DNA from: Pontiella desulfatans
GTDB lineage: Bacteria; Verrucomicrobiota; Kiritimatiellia; Kiritimatiellales; Pontiellaceae
DNA: 64,000 nt
Direction of reading: 5' to 3'
NCBI RefSeq assembly: GCF_900890425.1
Contig: NZ_CAAHFG010000004.1
Location: 1,036,330-1,100,329, forward strand
Part shown: positions 52,439 to 64,000 of the stretch, piece by piece
How positions within the stretch are numbered: the stretch's first letter is position 1
Layout of the letters: each line of letters starts with the position of its first letter
Position numbers and translations under genes: made by a program
Notes under the pieces: generated by a model
Databases searched by the model: none
The model's input: only the letters and a program-made list of their open reading frames with translations
Told to the model about the DNA's origin: nothing

Positions 52439-52995
52439 AAGCTGGAGAAAACAGAGGACGGCGAAACTTTATCCGCGGCGCGGCGGCGGTCGTGATCGGC
52501 GGCACAGTGCTGGCGGCGGCGCGTAGCCGCTCGCCCAAGCTGGTGTGGCAGATCGATCCCGAAAAATGCACGCGCTGCGGGCGCTGCGCAACGCACTGCG
52601 TGCTGGCGCCGTCGGCCGTGAAGTGCGTTCACTCCTATTCCATCTGCGGCTACTGCGACCTCTGCGGCGGTTATCTGCGTCCCGATGCCAAGGGGCGCGA
52701 TACGGGCGCGGAAAACCAGCTCTGCCCGACCGCAGCCATCAAACGCACTTTCATCGAGGAGCCCTATTTCCAATACAAGATCGATGAGGATCTCTGCATC
52801 GGCTGCGGCATCTGCGTCGAGGGCTGCAGTGTTTTCGGCAACGGTTCGATGTATCTGCAGGTCAAGCACGACCTCTGCGTCAATTGCAACGAGTGCGCCA
52901 TCGCCCATGCCTGCCCGTCCGATGCCTTCGTCCGCGTCGTCGCCAAAAACGATGCCTACCTCCTCAAATCCGACCAGGAAAAGAGGGTGAGTTAA
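52435..52995 (+). CDS. Tat-exported multi-cluster ferredoxin
   Basis: 186 residues from ATG 52435, overlapping the previous stop. RGRRNFIRGAAAVVIGGTVL is a twin-arginine leader. Clusters are CTRCGRCATHC, CGYCDLCGG, CIGCGICVEGC and CVNCNECAIAHAC with CP, together suited to three [4Fe-4S] centres. NapG- and NosR-associated ferredoxins have the same layout, and the next gene is NapH-like, so this protein should exchange electrons with the membrane protein on the periplasmic side. Its stop codon is the first base of an inverted repeat element. Confidence 0.9.
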   Translation: MKAGENRGRRNFIRGAAAVVIGGTVLAAARSRSPKLVWQIDPEKCTRCGRCATHCVLAPSAVKCVHSYSICGYCDLCGGYLRPDAKGRDTGAENQLCPTAAIKRTFIEEPYFQYKIDEDLCIGCGICVEGCSVFGNGSMYLQVKHDLCVNCNECAIAHACPSDAFVRVVAKNDAYLLKSDQEKRVS

Positions 52996-53145
52996 TGGCC
53001 GCGAAGACGCAAAGACGCGAAAGAGCAGATGTGGTTTCCACCACGGAGGGACAGAGACACGGAGTATTGTTTAATTTCCTGACCTCCGTGTCTCTGTGCC
53101 TCCGTGGTAAAGAAAATCATCGCGTCTTTGCGTCTTTGCGGTCAT
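52995..53145. repeat. Nested palindromic element of the GACCGC(A/G)AAGACGC type
   Basis: Outer arms 52995-53020 and 53120-53145 (ATGGCCGCGAAGACGCAAAG.. against its complement, 24/26) enclose a second pair at 53035-53064 and 53084-53111 (CACGGAGG.ACAGAGACAC, about 24 bp). The element lies between the ferredoxin stop and the hydrophobic start of the NapH-like protein, whose frame is open through it. The same outer repeat flanks the GxxExxY gene at 57457. Confidence 0.9.
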
Positions 53146-54377: not shown

Positions 54378-54397
54378 CGTTTTGATGAAAGGAATGT

Positions 54398-54748
54398 TGT
54401 GTTGCCCCTACAGGGCAAGGGATATGGGAGGCAAGGCGTGAACATGGGGCGTTGCCCCATGCTAAATTGTGTAGTGCCGTTGGCACATTGAAAACAGGAC
54501 AACAATTGAGATCGGATCCATTGCCCTGAAAGGGCAAAACAATTTAGCCCGGGGCTAAGCCCCGGGATGCAGAGTCGCAAACGCATGGAGGTTGCCCTGA
54601 AAAGGCAAAACAATTTAGCCCGGGGCACCGCCCCGGGATGCAGAGTTGCAAACGCATGGAGGTTGCCCTGAAAGGGCAAAACAATTTAGCCCGGGGCACC
54701 GCCCCGGGACTGGAGAGAGGAAAAAAAATGCCCTGAAGGGGCAACACA
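54398..54748. repeat. REP-like repeat array upstream of a RAYT-type transposase
   Basis: Three units with 71-bp period start at 54521, 54592 and 54663, each made of hairpin 1 (TTGCCCTGAAAGGGCAA), ACAATTTAG and hairpin 2 (GCCCGGGGC..GCCCCGGG). An inverted unit at 54398-54490 (GTTGCCCCTACAGGGCAA, then GGGGCGTTGCCCC and GTAGTGCCGTTGGCACATT) completes the array. A similar array follows the transposase. Confidence 0.93.
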
Positions 54749-54764
54749 AGCAGAGGAATGGAAA

Positions 54765-55217
54765 ATGCCGCAATCGTTTTGCCAGTTGCATGCGCACATC
54801 GTGTTCAGCACGAAAGAGCGCGAGCCGTATTTGGGCGAAAGCATACGCCCGAAGGTGCATGCCTACATGGCGGGTATTCTCAATGAACTCGGTTGCTCCG
54901 GCATCCTCGTTGGTGGATTCGTCGATCATGTCCATTGTCTCTGCCTACTGAACAAAATGGAAACACCCGTGAAAATGGTGCAGATGTTAAAACAGGATTC
55001 GTCGAAATTTATCAAGACCTTGGATGATCGTTTGCATGCGTTTGGTTGGCAAAATGGATATGGTTTGTTCTCGGTCAGCCCGACGCATGTGGATTCCGTA
55101 CGCAACTATATTTCGGAGCAGGTGGAGCACCATCGGGTAAAATCGTTTCAGGAAGAGTATCGGGAATTTTTAAAGCGGTATAATGTGCCGTTTGATGAAC
55201 GATATGTTTGGGATTGA
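54765..55217 (+). CDS. IS200/IS605-type Y1 transposase (RAYT-like)
   Basis: 150 residues, GAGGA upstream of ATG 54765. HUH metal ligands are in VDHVHCLCLL, the nucleophilic Tyr is in VRNYISEQVEHHRV, and the start HAHIVFSTKEREPYL is typical of Y1 transposases. The flanking REP-like arrays mark it as a REP-associated tyrosine transposase, a single-copy domesticated relative that handles single-stranded palindromes. It sits in the gap between the NapH-like and the 55698 propeller genes. It is probably responsible for spreading the REP-like units; whether it is active cannot be told from sequence. Confidence 0.93.
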   Translation: MPQSFCQLHAHIVFSTKEREPYLGESIRPKVHAYMAGILNELGCSGILVGGFVDHVHCLCLLNKMETPVKMVQMLKQDSSKFIKTLDDRLHAFGWQNGYGLFSVSPTHVDSVRNYISEQVEHHRVKSFQEEYREFLKRYNVPFDERYVWD

Positions 55218-55223
55218 GGATCG

Positions 55224-55682
55224 GTTGTGTTGCCCCTTCAGGGCAAATGGTGGGTGGGGTAGCCATCCAGACCCGGGGCGTTGCCCCGGGCTAAATTGTG
55301 TAGTGCCGTTGGCACATTAAGATGGAGATGGTGGTAAAGAATCGGTTGTCCTGAAGGGACAACACAATTTAGCCCAGGGGCGTAGCCCTGGGACGGGGCG
55401 AAGCCCTGGGGGACAAGACAGGAACAAGGAAGGTTTGCGCTGAAGGCGCAACACAATTTAGCCTAGGGCAACGCCTAGGGGACAAGACAGGAAGACGGAA
55501 GGTTTGCCCTGAAGGGGCAACACAATTTAGCCCGGGGCGTAGCCCTGGGACGGGGCGAAGCCCTGGGGGACAAGACAGGAACAAGGAAGGTTTGCGCTGA
55601 AGGCGCAACACAATTTAGCCTAGGGCGCAGCCCTAGGGGGACAGAAGTCCCGAAATATAATTTGCCCTGAAGGGGCAACACA
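55224..55682. repeat. REP-like repeat array downstream of the RAYT gene, with compensatory stem changes
   Basis: An inverted unit (55224-55320) mirrors the left array, including GTAGTGCCGTTGGCACATT. Then come units with hairpin 1 in forms TTGTCC/GGACAA, TTGCGC/GCGCAA and TTGCCC/GGGCAA, each with TGAA loops, and hairpin 2 as CCCAGGGGC..GCCCTGGG, CCTAGGGC..GCCTAGG and CCCGGGGC..GCCCTGGG. Paired bases change together, so the structure itself is conserved. It ends 15 bp before the next gene. Confidence 0.93.
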
Positions 55683-55697
55683 AATATCAGGATTGCC

Positions 55698-57431
55698 ATG
55701 GCAAAAAAAAACGAATTTAAACAAAGACAAATTCCTGGACTGATCGCGCAGGGGGTGGCGCTGGTGGCGGCGCTGTTTGTGCTGGTGGTGGCGGTGCTGC
55801 TGGTTTCGGACCACGTGAAGCTGGTGAAGATGGATCCGCTGAACGATCCGACGCTGCTGGAGTTGCGCGAGCAACTGGGCAATGCGAGTGAAAGCAATGA
55901 GGCGGTGGTTGAGCAGATCCGCACCTACGACCTGTATGCGCGCCGCGCTTTTTTCAGCAACCAGGAGCAACGACGCGCCGGCGGCCTGCTGGCGCTCGGT
56001 GGAGCGGTCGTTTGTTTTGTTGCCCTCAAGCTTTCCAAGGTTTGGAAACCAAAGCTGCCTGCGGTGCAAAAGCCCGACACGCCCGACCACTGGGAGCTCA
56101 ACAGCCTCTTCCGCCAGCTCATGGCCGGGACGGGGATCTTTCTCGTGGTGCTGTCGCTCTTTCTCGCCTTCGCCGTGCAGAGCGATTTGGCCGTGGTGCT
56201 CGCCCAGCAGCCGGATGAGCAGGCAGGGGTGCCTGCTCATCAGGAAGAACGCATGGCGCAGGCTTCCTTGCCTTTGCAAACCGAAGCAATGAAAGCCAAC
56301 TGGCCATCGTTGCGCGGTTGGGGAAACATTGGCCAGGCGTTGGCGATGGACGCGCCGATTAGTTGGGATGTGGAATCGGGCGAGGGTATCATATGGAAGG
56401 CGGATGTGCCCGTGCACGGTTTCAACTCGCCGATCGTCTGGGGCGACCGCCTCTTCTTCACGGGGGGCGACGAGGAGGGTTGCGAGGTCTTCTGCTACAA
56501 TGCCGACTCGGGCGAGGAGCTGTGGGTGGGGAAGGTTGAGACCTCGGTCGAGCTACCGGAGGTTTCGGAGGATACCGGCTTTGCCGCGCCGACCATGGCG
56601 ACCGACGGAACGCGCGTGTTCGCCATCTTCGCGACGGGCGAGCTGGCGGCGTTCGATTTCAATGGCAACCTGGTCTGGCAAAAAAACCTCGGCGTTCCGG
56701 AAAACCCCTACGGCATGGGCTCGTCGCTCGTCAGCGATGGAGAGCGCCTGTTTGTGCAGTACGACCATGAGGAAAACCAAAAGGTGATGGCGTTCAATTG
56801 CGCCGACGGTTCCGCGGTCTGGGAAACCGCGCGCCTGCACATTTCGTGGTCGACGCCTGCCCTCATCGAAACCGCCGGCGGCATGCAGCTGGTGCTCAAC
56901 GACGAGGAGTTTACGACCGCCTACGATCCGAAGAGCGGCAAGCAGCTCTGGCAAGTCAAGTGCCTCGGCGGCGAGGTGGCGCCTTCGCCCGCCTTTAACG
57001 GCAAGGACCTGGTTTTCGTGGCCAACGAATATGCACAGGCCAGCGCGCTCAAACTCAATGGCGCAACGCCGCAGATCCTCTGGCAGTACGACGAATACCT
57101 GCCGGAAATCGCCAGCCCCCTCGCGGCCGAAGACCGTTTCTTCATCGCCACCTCGGCGGGCGACATGATCTGCCTCGACGCCGCAACGGGCGGGGTCAAG
57201 TGGGAGCAGGAGTTCGACGACGGCTTCAGCTCGTCGCCCGTGCTGGTGGGCGGCAAGGTCTATGCGGTACACCTCGGCGGCATCATGCACATCTTCGATG
57301 CCAAGGCCGATACCTACCACGAGATCGCCGCCATCGACATGGGCGAAGCCGTCTACGCCACCCCGGCGTTTGCAAACAACCGCATCTACATCCGCGGCGA
57401 CGAAACCCTCTACTGCATTGGGAAGGAATGA
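55698..57431 (+). CDS. Membrane-anchored PQQ-like beta-propeller protein
   Basis: 577 residues. Three N-terminal helices (about 15-38, 95-115 and 140-165) precede the propeller (from about 195, NWPSLRGWGNIGQALA). Repeats are CYNADSGEELWVGKV, AFDFNGNLVWQKN, AFNCADGSAVWETAR, AYDPKSGKQLWQVK and CLDAATGGVKWEQEF. The first helix follows a coiled region (LELREQLGNASESNEAV). It is the largest propeller of the set and probably faces the periplasm. Its TGA stop is formed at the edge of the inverted repeat carrying the GxxExxY gene, so the repeat inserted right at the gene end. Confidence 0.85.
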   Translation: MAKKNEFKQRQIPGLIAQGVALVAALFVLVVAVLLVSDHVKLVKMDPLNDPTLLELREQLGNASESNEAVVEQIRTYDLYARRAFFSNQEQRRAGGLLALGGAVVCFVALKLSKVWKPKLPAVQKPDTPDHWELNSLFRQLMAGTGIFLVVLSLFLAFAVQSDLAVVLAQQPDEQAGVPAHQEERMAQASLPLQTEAMKANWPSLRGWGNIGQALAMDAPISWDVESGEGIIWKADVPVHGFNSPIVWGDRLFFTGGDEEGCEVFCYNADSGEELWVGKVETSVELPEVSEDTGFAAPTMATDGTRVFAIFATGELAAFDFNGNLVWQKNLGVPENPYGMGSSLVSDGERLFVQYDHEENQKVMAFNCADGSAVWETARLHISWSTPALIETAGGMQLVLNDEEFTTAYDPKSGKQLWQVKCLGGEVAPSPAFNGKDLVFVANEYAQASALKLNGATPQILWQYDEYLPEIASPLAAEDRFFIATSAGDMICLDAATGGVKWEQEFDDGFSSSPVLVGGKVYAVHLGGIMHIFDAKADTYHEIAAIDMGEAVYATPAFANNRIYIRGDETLYCIGKE

Positions 57432-57890
57432 CCGCAAAGACGCAAAGGACGCGAAGATGGATAAGAAAAAGGCCATAACAACTGATCGGCAAGAAGAGCT
57501 GGTGAAACAATTCATTGATGCTGCCATAACCGTCCATCGGGAACTCGGGCCGGGGTATGATGAAGCAATATATGAAAACGCACTTGCCATAGAAATGGAC
57601 ATCAGAGGAATCCCGTATGAGCGGCAGAAGGTCTTTGATGTTACCTTCAAAGGGCACGTAGTTGGTGAGGGCAGGATGGACTTTGTTCTTGGAAGTGAAG
57701 TTGTTGTCGAACTCAAAACGGTTGATAAGCTAAGTCCCAAGCACACTGCCCAAACAATTAAATATCTCAAGGCGCTTGGAAAGCCCCTGGGATTGCTTGT
57801 GAACTTCCACGAATACCTTCTTAAAGACGGGCTTAAACGTATCATTTATGCAGGTAATTGAGTTCTTGGTTTCTTCGCGTCTTTGCGGTC
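57428..57890. mobile_element. Inverted-repeat unit carrying a GxxExxY gene
   Basis: The left repeat (57430-57457, GACCGCAAAGACGCAAAGGA.. ending GCGAAGA) and right repeat (57872-57890, TCTTCGCGTCTTTGCGGTC) are inverted copies over 18-19 bp and bound the small gene. Copies without a gene occur at 52995 and 60252. It behaves like a small mobile unit with empty derivatives, but no transposition has been shown. Confidence 0.8.
57457..57861 (+). CDS. GxxExxY family protein (PD-(D/E)xK-like fold)
   Basis: 134 residues from ATG 57457, whose first base closes the left inverted repeat. HRELGPGYDEAIYENALAIE has the family signature G-x2-E-x2-Y. GRMDFVLGSEVVVELKTVDK gives a D-x-E-x-K type arrangement (Asp, Glu in VELK) compatible with a PD-(D/E)xK nuclease core. 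The family is uncharacterised and common in environmental genomes. Its place inside a GACCGC repeat unit, within an operon of unrelated function, suggests it is a passenger or the mobility factor of that repeat. Confidence 0.88.
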   Translation: MDKKKAITTDRQEELVKQFIDAAITVHRELGPGYDEAIYENALAIEMDIRGIPYERQKVFDVTFKGHVVGEGRMDFVLGSEVVVELKTVDKLSPKHTAQTIKYLKALGKPLGLLVNFHEYLLKDGLKRIIYAGN

Positions 57891-57900
57891 AAACAAATAG

Positions 57901-60251: not shown

Positions 60252-60318
60252 ATGACCGCGAAGACGCAAAGAAACAAAGGAATTAGGAGCTTTTGCTTCT
60301 TCGCGTCTTTGCGGTCAT
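60252..60318. repeat. Empty GACCGC-type inverted repeat
   Basis: Arms 60252-60273 and 60297-60318 (ATGACCGCGAAGACGCAAAG.. and its complement, 20/22) flank 23 bp. It lies between the NuoEF stop (60246) and the next gene start (60344). It is the shortest form of the unit around the GxxExxY gene and probably arose from it by loss of the gene, or the reverse. Confidence 0.9.
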
Positions 60319-60343
60319 AAAAAAGCAGTTGAAGAGATGTGGA

Positions 60344-61810
60344 ATGGTTGAACTGAAAATAGACGGAATGCCTGCGAAGGTGAAGGATGGGGCTACGGTG
60401 CTGGATGCGGCACGGTTGCTTGCGATCGATATTCCAACGCTGTGCCATCTGAAGGAGTGCGAGCCGGAAACCTCGTGCATGCTGTGCGTGGTGAAGAACA
60501 CGGCGACCGGGCAGCTGGTCCCTTCGTGTTCGGCCCAGGCCACCGACGGCATGGCGATCGACACCGAGTGCGAAGAGGTGCAGGCCGCGCGGCGCGACAC
60601 CCTCAACCTGCTACTGAGCGAGCACGTTGGCGATTGCGAGGCGCCCTGCACCCGCATCTGCCCGGCGCACCTGGATATTCCAACGATGCTGCGCCAGATC
60701 GAACGCGGCAACATGGAGCAGGCCGGGTGGATCGCCAAGCGCGACCTCGCCATCCCCGCCACCCTCGGCCACGTTTGTCCCGCTCCCTGCGAAAAGGGAT
60801 GCCGCCGGGGGCAGCTCGACGAGGCGCTGAAGATTCGCCAGTCCCACCGTGAGGGGTCGGTCCTATGTTTTAATGGTTTTGACAAAAAACATCATTTCAT
60901 AGGACTGACCCCTAATCTGACCCCTCGTGGAAAGACTGCGGTGGTTGGTTCGGGGGCGGCGGGGCTTTCCTGTGCCTGGAAGCTGTTGCAGCTGGGCTAT
61001 GCGGTGACGGTGTTTGATGAAGCGCCGCAGGCGGGTGGCGTATTGCGGGGGCATCAGGATTTGCCGATGGAGGTGCTGGATTCTGAAATTGATTGGCTGG
61101 CACAGGCGGGAATCGAGTTTCGTTTGGGCGAATCGATTTCTTTGCAGTCGATGGCTGATGGCTTCGGGGGGGTGGTTTTTGCGGAGGCGGAGTTTGCGGG
61201 GACGCGTTTTGCGGATGCGGTCTATGCCGAGGAGCATAAGCTGGCGGTGAAGGCGGTGGCCAACGGCAAGGCGGCGGCGATTGCGTTGGATCGGTCCTTG
61301 AAGGGCGAGCAACCAAAGAATGAAAGCCGGTTTGATTCGAAGATCGGCAAGCTGCGCGATAGCGAAGTGACCGAACTGGCCAAGAACTGTTCGAGGGATG
61401 AGCAGGCTGGAAAGCCTGCCCAAGCGGAAGCGGCACGATGCCTGCACTGCGACTGCCGGAAGCCGGCGAGCTGCAAGCTGCGGCAGTATGCGGAGCAATA
61501 TGGCGCCGACCAGCGGGAGTTCCCGGCGGACGAGCGCGGGCACGTCCAGCTGATCGGCCACGGTGAGGCGGTGGTGTTCGAACCGGGCAAGTGCATCAAG
61601 TGCGGGCTGTGCGTGAAAATCACGAAGCGCGCGGGCGAAGAACTGGGCGTGACGTTTGTCGGCCGCGGCTACAACACGCGGGTGGCGGTTCCGTTCAGCG
61701 AATCCTTGGCGGCGGGACTGAAGAGGACGGCCGAGGACGTGGTGAAGGTTTGCCCCACCGGCGCGCTGGCCTTCCGTGACGCAGAAGAAAACTTGAAACT
61801 TGAAACCTAA
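60344..61810 (+). CDS. [2Fe-2S]/FAD oxidoreductase, GltD-like, shortened
   Basis: 488 residues from ATG 60344 (a frame from 60293 runs through the repeat). An N-terminal [2Fe-2S] domain (CHLKECEPETSCMLC) leads into a GltD/NfnB-type Cys region (CTRICPAHLDIP, CPAPCEKGC). The FAD Rossmann motif is GSGAAG from Gly202. The usual second NAD(P)-binding half is largely missing, since the text goes from GGVLRGH to a short middle and then to the tail. The tail has CLHCDCRKPASC and CIKCGLC cluster motifs. It probably passes electrons from the NuoEF protein to another partner. A palindrome codes for residues about 170-195. Confidence 0.85.
   Translation: MVELKIDGMPAKVKDGATVLDAARLLAIDIPTLCHLKECEPETSCMLCVVKNTATGQLVPSCSAQATDGMAIDTECEEVQAARRDTLNLLLSEHVGDCEAPCTRICPAHLDIPTMLRQIERGNMEQAGWIAKRDLAIPATLGHVCPAPCEKGCRRGQLDEALKIRQSHREGSVLCFNGFDKKHHFIGLTPNLTPRGKTAVVGSGAAGLSCAWKLLQLGYAVTVFDEAPQAGGVLRGHQDLPMEVLDSEIDWLAQAGIEFRLGESISLQSMADGFGGVVFAEAEFAGTRFADAVYAEEHKLAVKAVANGKAAAIALDRSLKGEQPKNESRFDSKIGKLRDSEVTELAKNCSRDEQAGKPAQAEAARCLHCDCRKPASCKLRQYAEQYGADQREFPADERGHVQLIGHGEAVVFEPGKCIKCGLCVKITKRAGEELGVTFVGRGYNTRVAVPFSESLAAGLKRTAEDVVKVCPTGALAFRDAEENLKLET
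60851..60926. repeat. In-frame palindromic element within the FAD oxidoreductase gene
   Basis: Arms AGGGGTCGGTCCTATG (60852-60867) and CATAGGACTGACCCCT (60898-60913) pair with one mismatch; an extra GACCCCTC (60919-60926) can pair with GAGGGGTC (60851-60858). The frame stays open (EGSVLCFNGFDKKHHFIG). The element belongs with those at 44199 and 49694 by its GGTCCT.TG and CTGACCCCT text. Confidence 0.9.
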
Positions 61811-63104: not shown

Positions 63105-64000
63105 CTTTGAGCAAAATGATTCCTTTGTTGGCGTGTTGTTCCTCGATGTGCTGGGGAGCATGGCCGACCTATCATGGCGCTCCCGACTTGAAGGGCGTGG
63201 CGGATGCCGAATTGGGCAACCAGCTGGAGCTGGCCTGGCGGTTTAATGCGGGAGGCGAAGTTTACAGCACGCCCGTCTCGGACGGTGAACGGATTTTCTT
63301 TTCGGCGAAGAAAGGGCGGGTGGTGGCGCTGGATCAAAAAGGAATAAAGATCTGGGAGCGTAGCTTCACGCGCACGAACGATGCGGGGCAGGAGATGGCG
63401 CTGCGGTTCGAGGCGCCGTTGGTTTGCGCGGCTGGATTGGTCTTTGCGGGGAGCACGAAGGGAACGCTCTTTGCCCTCGATGCCAAGACCGGGGCGACGA
63501 TGTGGAAGTATGAAACGGATGGGATCATCGTGGGCTCGGCAAATGTCATTTTGGATGGCCGCGAAGACGCGAAGATCGTTGTGATGGATCAGTCGGAAGG
63601 CATGCTGCATGGCCTTGATGTTGCGACGGGAAAGATGGTTTGGAAGTCGGAGGCGGCGGAGCGGTGCGATGGCGCGCCGGGGGTTGGCGCTGGCCGCATT
63701 GCCTACGGGAGCTGCCTGGCGGCCCTGCATGTCTATTCAACCGATGGGAAGCATTTGAAGGATATCGAAGTCGGCGGCGACGGGCAGATTGCGGGCGGCG
63801 TTGCGGTCGAGGGCAAGCTGGCCTATGCCGGATTGCGCGATGGCGCGCTGGTCTGCATCGATATGGAATCGGGTGAAATCGTTTGGAGCAGCGAGGAGTC
63901 GGAAGACCAGACGTTTTCCACCCCGGCGGTGACGGAGCATCGGGTGGTCTATGCCTCGGACAACGGCTTCGTCTATGCGGTCGACAAGAAGGAGGGGAAG
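63101..64000 (+). CDS. Exported PQQ-like beta-propeller protein, 3' end outside the window
   Basis: The frame opens at ATG 63101, overlapping the glycosyltransferase stop, and stays open for all 300 codons to the window edge. The signal peptide is MTLSKMIPLLACCSSMCWGA. Repeats are ALDQKGIKIWERSF, ALDAKTGATMWKYETDG, GLDVATGKMVWKSEA, CIDMESGEIVWSSEE and YAVDKKEGK. ILDGREDAKIVVMDQSEG is a blade feature frequent in this type. It is the fifth PQQ-like propeller of the operon. Nothing can be said of its C-terminus. Confidence 0.88.
   Translation, partial: MTLSKMIPLLACCSSMCWGAWPTYHGAPDLKGVADAELGNQLELAWRFNAGGEVYSTPVSDGERIFFSAKKGRVVALDQKGIKIWERSFTRTNDAGQEMALRFEAPLVCAAGLVFAGSTKGTLFALDAKTGATMWKYETDGIIVGSANVILDGREDAKIVVMDQSEGMLHGLDVATGKMVWKSEAAERCDGAPGVGAGRIAYGSCLAALHVYSTDGKHLKDIEVGGDGQIAGGVAVEGKLAYAGLRDGALVCIDMESGEIVWSSEESEDQTFSTPAVTEHRVVYASDNGFVYAVDKKEGK

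Follow-up and report, generated by a model that had tools for sequence, protein, structure and literature searches.

Whether an uncharacterised GxxExxY gene lying between inverted repeats is the mobility enzyme of a very small mobile element or merely a stowaway in one is the question raised by the 64,000-nt stretch of Pontiella desulfatans DNA analysed here (the window). A first-pass annotation had left both roles standing and had read the repeats, together with two gene-less copies nearby, as a full element with MITE-like derivatives. This arrangement was confirmed. The gene (57457-57861, + strand) encodes a 134-aa protein with a predicted PD-(D/E)XK nuclease fold. To its left is a terminal arm, TGACCGCAAAGACGCAAAGGACGCGAAG (57429-57456, + strand), which consists of TGA followed by the three heptads CGCAAAG-A-CGCAAAG-GA-CGCGAAG; to its right is CTTCGCGTCTTTGCGGTCA (57873-57891, − strand), the reverse complement of the left arm with the third heptad decayed. 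When 326 windows of equal size were placed at shifted positions, only 0.3% reached the inverted-repeat score of this element.

The first of the gene-less copies is a GACCGC-type palindrome (52995-53145; arms at 52995-53020 and 53120-53145, 92% complementary). As an addition to the first reading, it was found to be two palindromes, one within the other, its loop enclosing a CACGGAG-type palindrome (53040-53108; arms at 53040-53064 and 53084-53108, 96% complementary). The second copy is a GACCGC-type palindrome of 67 bp (60252-60318). No gene is present inside either copy, and both fold as DNA far better than shuffled sequences (z of −12.5 for copy 1, folded as 52995-53143, and of −6.1 for copy 2). 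The ends had been said to sit on host stop codons, which was borne out: the TGA in the left arm (57429-57431) is the stop of the upstream gene (55698-57431), copy 1 abuts a TAA (52993-52995), and copy 2 begins 5 nt past the TGA of a hydrogenase/NuoEF-like gene. The window also contains a single arm-like stretch, GGCCGCGAAGACGCGAAG (63557-63574), and a short palindromic stretch, GGTCGGTCCTATGTTTTAATGGTTTTGACAAAAAACATCATTTCATAGGACTGACCCC (60855-60930), in frame within an open reading frame at 60293-61810. No Rfam family covers the hairpins; sub-threshold matches of the nested palindrome to plant microRNAs were taken as long-hairpin artefacts.

The encoded protein was assigned to TIGR04256 (128 bits; cut-off 35) and PF13366 (129 bits; cut-off 22), a family carried by 60% of 289 genomes of the phylum, and to nothing else in Pfam and NCBIfam: no Y1/HUH domain, no known transposase family and no S23 (PF05635) match was found there. 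The D..E-x-K type core inferred by the first-pass annotation proved well supported. The window protein carries E36, D75, E85-x-K87, Q99 and Y103, and among 164 proteins D75, K87 and Y103 are each kept in 161, and E85 and Q99 in 158. An AlphaFold2 model (pLDDT 92, pTM 0.84) is PD-(D/E)XK-like and, by Foldseek, resembles LHK-Exo, lambda exonuclease and the Cas4-family protein SSO0001 (E from 2e-4 to 1e-3); VIA structural comparison with SSO0001 gave a Z of 9.4 and an rmsd of 3.3 over 101 residues. The PADLOC Cas4b model matched the window protein weakly (19 bits, E 0.00036). The sole sequence match of known structure was T7 endonuclease I (E 0.83), which was not used. As modelled, the fold is that of a RecB/Cas4-like, stand-alone PD-(D/E)XK nuclease. 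It shares with RecB, Cas4 and lambda exonuclease the fold and the D / E-x-K / Q-x3-Y core, but it is a stand-alone protein of 134 aa tied to a repeat-bounded element, and no CRISPR or recombination genes lie beside it in the window.

Gene and arms were found to form a unit well beyond this locus. In P. desulfatans itself, 10 or 11 of the 15 PF13366 genes are closely bracketed by inverted repeats of varying sequence. Across this genome and its relatives, an inverted-repeat score of at least 14 was found at 66 of 86 GxxExxY loci (77%), versus 4.1% when flanks were paired across different loci of this set, 0.3% of control windows shifted within the same loci and none of 18 ParE toxin genes in the same genomes. 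A scan of 84,980 species genomes, performed with subclade alignment A2 as alignment A1 was too diverse, recovered 80 GxxExxY loci in more than 15 phyla, with arms at 57 of the 77 testable ones. This cross-phylum set is thereby biased to CACAGAG-type arms, and its mismatched-pair rate of 17% arises because these loci share one arm class. With groups of homologous flanks counted once, arms are present at 72 of 101 independent loci. The pattern of a full element with MITE-like derivatives thus holds for most GxxExxY genes examined, yet the idea of one repeat for the whole class had to be given up: GACCGCAAAGACGC is one of many lineage-specific arm types, and GACCGC is not common to all GxxExxY genes. 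Clear arms are missing at about one quarter of GxxExxY genes, fused double-domain paralogues included; fused PF13366 proteins of 260-300 aa without flanking repeats (L020, L022 and L023) are possibly domesticated paralogues.

Armed elements measure 406-637 bp (median 460). Their arms, of about 30 nt, typically consist of three 7-mers of the form CRCNNAR (for example, CACTAAT, CACGAAA, CACGAAT, CGCAAAG, CGCAGAG and CACAGAG), with start-to-start spacings of 8, 9 and 10 bp in 151, 118 and 61 cases, respectively; a minority are built on other units, such as ACAGGAT. CRCNNAR doublets occur in 80% of arms, versus 1.1% of shuffled arms and 0% of 14 arm sets from S23 genes. Arm similarity follows protein similarity across unrelated flanks (Spearman 0.445, matched by 0 of 500 permutations; 123 armed elements, 7371 pairs), and within one protein subclade CACAGAG-like arms stay constant from Bacteroidota to Chloroflexota and Pseudomonadota in the cross-phylum set. 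Protein and arms are therefore paired by lineage across unrelated loci.

The suggested preference for gene ends was also recovered. At independent loci, with neighbouring genes called as long open reading frames, the left arm starts a median of 3 nt past the upstream stop codon (34 of 52 within 10 nt), and the GxxExxY gene shares the orientation of its two neighbours in 46 cases and opposes the two of them in 3. A preference at insertion and selection for being expressed with the host operon would, alone or jointly, produce such position and orientation, and the data do not separate them. No junction rule was found beyond the gene-end position.

The gene-less, or solo, repeats track the gene. 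The first-pass annotation would have been refuted had GxxExxY genes elsewhere lacked such repeats while the repeats were equally common in genomes without the gene; instead, genes elsewhere do have them, and the repeats are much commoner in gene-bearing genomes. Of the 289 genomes from the phylum, 174 carry PF13366 and 115 do not; CACAGAG doublets were found in 103 of the former versus 5 of the latter (2076 versus 17 copies; odds ratio 32, P value 3e-24), and CGCAAAG doublets in 125 versus 28; these associations ignore phylogenetic relatedness. When 40 relatives are ranked by CACTAAT doublets, the first five places (31-56 doublets; at most 25 in the others) go to the five genomes for which a CACTAAT-armed gene had been observed, and CACGAAT doublets number 14-33 in the four genomes with such a gene in the fetched loci versus a median of 1 elsewhere. 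A fifth CACGAAT genome (G027) was added after repeats had been seen beside a known gene position and is not independent, while G030 has 52 CACGAAT copies and no gene of that class among the sampled loci; the 40-relative counts include the genes' own arms, and some genes in these genomes are unclassified. The GACCGC solos of P. desulfatans are mostly intergenic hairpins of 51-71 bp, and GxxExxY was the only gene seen between GACCGC arms in 28 fetched loci of this genome. In G042, a solo family of about 125 bp occupies unrelated places, with stretches 86-93% alike. Two further cases stood apart: G221 carries 308 CGCAAAG doublets in its 3.3 Mb, far above the other searched genomes and skewed to one strand (216 forward, 92 reverse), perhaps as a tandem array or through a recent burst; and a 3.6-kb contig (L317 1-3601; G257:C58) has identical 78-bp ends bearing CACAGAG arms, for which an assembly join and a circular form are both possible explanations.

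Sites were compared between species only, with one genome per species. At the window site, orthologous positions in 12 species are full (G000, G021 and G012), solo (G016, G001 and G005, plus G035 with another arm type), single-armed (G004), occupied by another hairpin (G017) or empty (G003, G009 and G026). The next gap downstream holds solos in G000, G012, G001 and G009 and a gene-bearing element, whose reading frame appears broken, in G005, so that over this pair of adjacent gaps G005 mirrors G000/G012, the one being full where the other is solo. The right junction AATAAAATC(T/G)GATGAAT is common, at the window site, to the full copy of G021 and the solo of G005, which indicates that at least part of the full/solo differences originated in situ. 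In a V-ATPase operon, likewise, the content of two gaps varies with the species: GxxExxY elements that differ from one another, an S23 element, solos, or no insert at all. One 500-bp element is 88% identical between two species with unrelated flanks (L030/L083). The site comparison by which the first-pass annotation had hoped to define the boundaries thus yielded filled, solo and empty sites. No target duplication was detectable in 112 elements, where repeats of k = 2-9 were close to those of mismatched pairs. Near-identical full copies within one genome, as expected of recent transposition, were absent from the sampled loci, the closest pair being the 88% one between species. Among window-site orthologues, synonymous differences are saturated (pS 0.76-0.89) and pN is 0.05-0.21, which corresponds to purifying selection; the low pN and the kept arms argue that the unit is maintained in the long term, RAYT-like rather than as a decaying insertion sequence. 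The window element itself, being old and at the same site in three species, may no longer move.

Several known systems offer parallels. PD-(D/E)XK homing endonucleases are encoded by small nuclease genes and have occupied and empty sites; GxxExxY is alike in being a small nuclease gene with occupied and empty orthologous sites (between species), but it has many unrelated intergenic sites, repeat ends of its own and gene-less copies. Insertion sequences with MITEs also place one small gene between terminal inverted repeats and have gene-less relatives with the same ends; GxxExxY elements, however, have no known transposase family or detectable target duplication, and their ends vary in sequence between elements while keeping one grammar. 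There is also a likeness to REPIN/RAYT (REP-associated tyrosine transposase) systems (for example, PMC3116915, PMC3733652), in which a low-copy gene has lineage-matched palindromic repeats at its ends and tens of gene-less intergenic hairpins lie mostly after gene ends; the absence of a target duplication in the present elements is a further point in common. GxxExxY satisfies two criteria of that system: dedicated palindromic repeats occur both at the gene and dispersed through the genome, and the repeat type co-varies with protein lineage. In contrast, the GxxExxY enzyme is a predicted PD-(D/E)XK nuclease and its arms consist of 7-mers in tandem, spaced at 8-10 bp, whereas REPs are GTAG- or CGTC-tagged; since the Y1 domain is missing, the GxxExxY system is not a member of REPIN/RAYT. 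A Y1 (IS200-like, RAYT-like) transposase gene does lie in the window (54765-55217), with many TTGCCCTGAAGGGGCAACACAATTTAGCCCGGGGC copies on both sides (54396-55683). Rfam identifies these repeats as Acido-Lenti-1 RNA (RF01687), with three copies above its gathering score, and from their position about the Y1 gene this 'sRNA' appears to be the REP sequence belonging to a RAYT system.

A further parallel is with the 23S rRNA intervening sequences that carry S23 genes (PF05635; PMC4990558), which are of similar size with one small open reading frame between paired ends; GxxExxY elements differ from them in protein family and arm units, and lie between protein genes in operons. In the genomes studied here, 12 of 24 S23/four-helix-bundle genes lie between inverted repeats scoring at least 15. 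Those outside rRNA (L053-L082) have short-repeat arms of their own (GTTTGGA, GGCTTNAG and GTTATC), and one S23 element (L119, around 360-860) sits in a V-ATPase operon gap that is occupied by GxxExxY elements in other species. These S23 genes appear to form a parallel system. That their arms are built on different units, with CRCNNAR doublets in 0 of 14 sets, speaks for protein-specific arms, and that they lie between arms at all means that a unit of this kind can do without a nuclease. One could envisage a general class of elements lacking a transposase, with a tiny gene between tandem-repeat arms and at least two independent forms (PD-(D/E)XK GxxExxY with CRCNNAR, and four-helix-bundle S23 with other heptads), whose protein recognises and mobilises the arms and which insert at gene ends; this wider proposal is tentative, with the odds slightly against it. 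If the S23 parallel is true, it suggests a role for the protein of the rRNA intervening sequences.

Taken together, the GxxExxY gene and its arms are best explained as a REPIN/RAYT-like minimal mobile element in which a PD-(D/E)XK nuclease takes the place of the Y1 transposase, a reading to which we give a probability of roughly two in three. The element would comprise about 460 bp, with one GxxExxY gene and two arms. Its protein would recognise the 7-mer repeats of its own arms. The 8-10 bp heptad spacing suggests that it probably does so as an oligomer, and the arms may then be in hairpin or cruciform form; it would cut the arms, after which host repair or replication would copy the element to new intergenic places without leaving a target duplication. 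The gene-less palindromes with the same arms would be non-autonomous derivatives, maintained and spread in trans. The unit of gene and arms, its lineage-matched pairing and the link between solos and gene presence are established by the data; heptad binding, arm cleavage and cleavage-driven movement are inferred from the nuclease core and the pairing. On that inference, the hairpins are probably spread by GxxExxY proteins acting as the enzymes. Confidence in this enzymatic role is not higher mainly because the S23 elements show that such units need no nuclease. The 46:3 co-orientation also counts against a simple DNA transposon, for which it would not be expected unless insertions the other way round are lost through selection.

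Among the alternatives, most weight was left to homing, in which GxxExxY cleaves solos (or empty sites) and recombination, with the arms as homology, brings in a copy of the gene, so that full and solo forms interconvert in place and solos spread otherwise. The junction shared by G021 and G005, the reciprocal full/solo states of G005 and G000/G012, the lack of a target duplication and the nuclease fold all suit it, but an in-place deletion from full to solo would yield the same junction, elements stand at many non-homologous places (101 flank clusters), and the near-absence of solos in gene-less genomes is unexplained unless homing also maintains solos; we regard it as unlikely. Less probable still is that the gene is cargo of palindromic elements moved by another enzyme, such as a RAYT or an unknown factor. 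This stowaway role is consistent with the non-nuclease S23 genes between heptad-repeat arms, and with RAYT genes and REPs in the same genome, even between the copies in the window; it does not account for an arm type that tracks the GxxExxY lineage across unrelated loci and phyla, for the different units of the S23 arms, for solos that track the gene and its arm class, or for the lack of any other gene between GACCGC arms at the 28 fetched loci. Of the two roles originally left standing, the enzyme is thus favoured by the pairing across phyla, though experiment has not settled the matter.

It could also be that nothing moves, the arms being sites on DNA or RNA that GxxExxY binds or processes so as to act on solo-bearing operon mRNAs as well as on its own transcript, with the pairing as regulation. 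Arms right after stop codons, the co-orientation with the operon, long-term purifying selection and the hairpins to be expected in mRNA, given how strongly this strand folds as DNA, are in line with this, whereas the occupied/solo/empty polymorphism, the transfer of a unit into unrelated flanks (L030/L083), solos 86-93% alike at unrelated places in one genome, and the nested palindromes show movement of arms and gene and make it very improbable as a full account; a regulatory role could exist on top of mobility. The idea that meaningless short inverted repeats stand near small genes by chance or composition draws only on the short length of single arms, and we give it next to no credence, the ParE and shifted-window controls having ruled it out and the mismatched pairs standing equally against it.

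No phage record was found at the threshold used when five loci were compared with 2.9 million viral contigs. In the open-access literature searched, subscription journals not being covered, we found no description of GxxExxY elements, GxxExxY being named rarely and in passing, no mention of TIGR04256 and no relevant paper with the repeat strings. The repeat-bounded element gives the uncharacterised GxxExxY family (TIGR04256), present in many bacterial phyla, a directly testable function. It would also explain many interspersed hairpins of environmental bacteria that had lacked an explanation, and would add a different enzyme class to the few systems that maintain palindrome populations in bacterial chromosomes.
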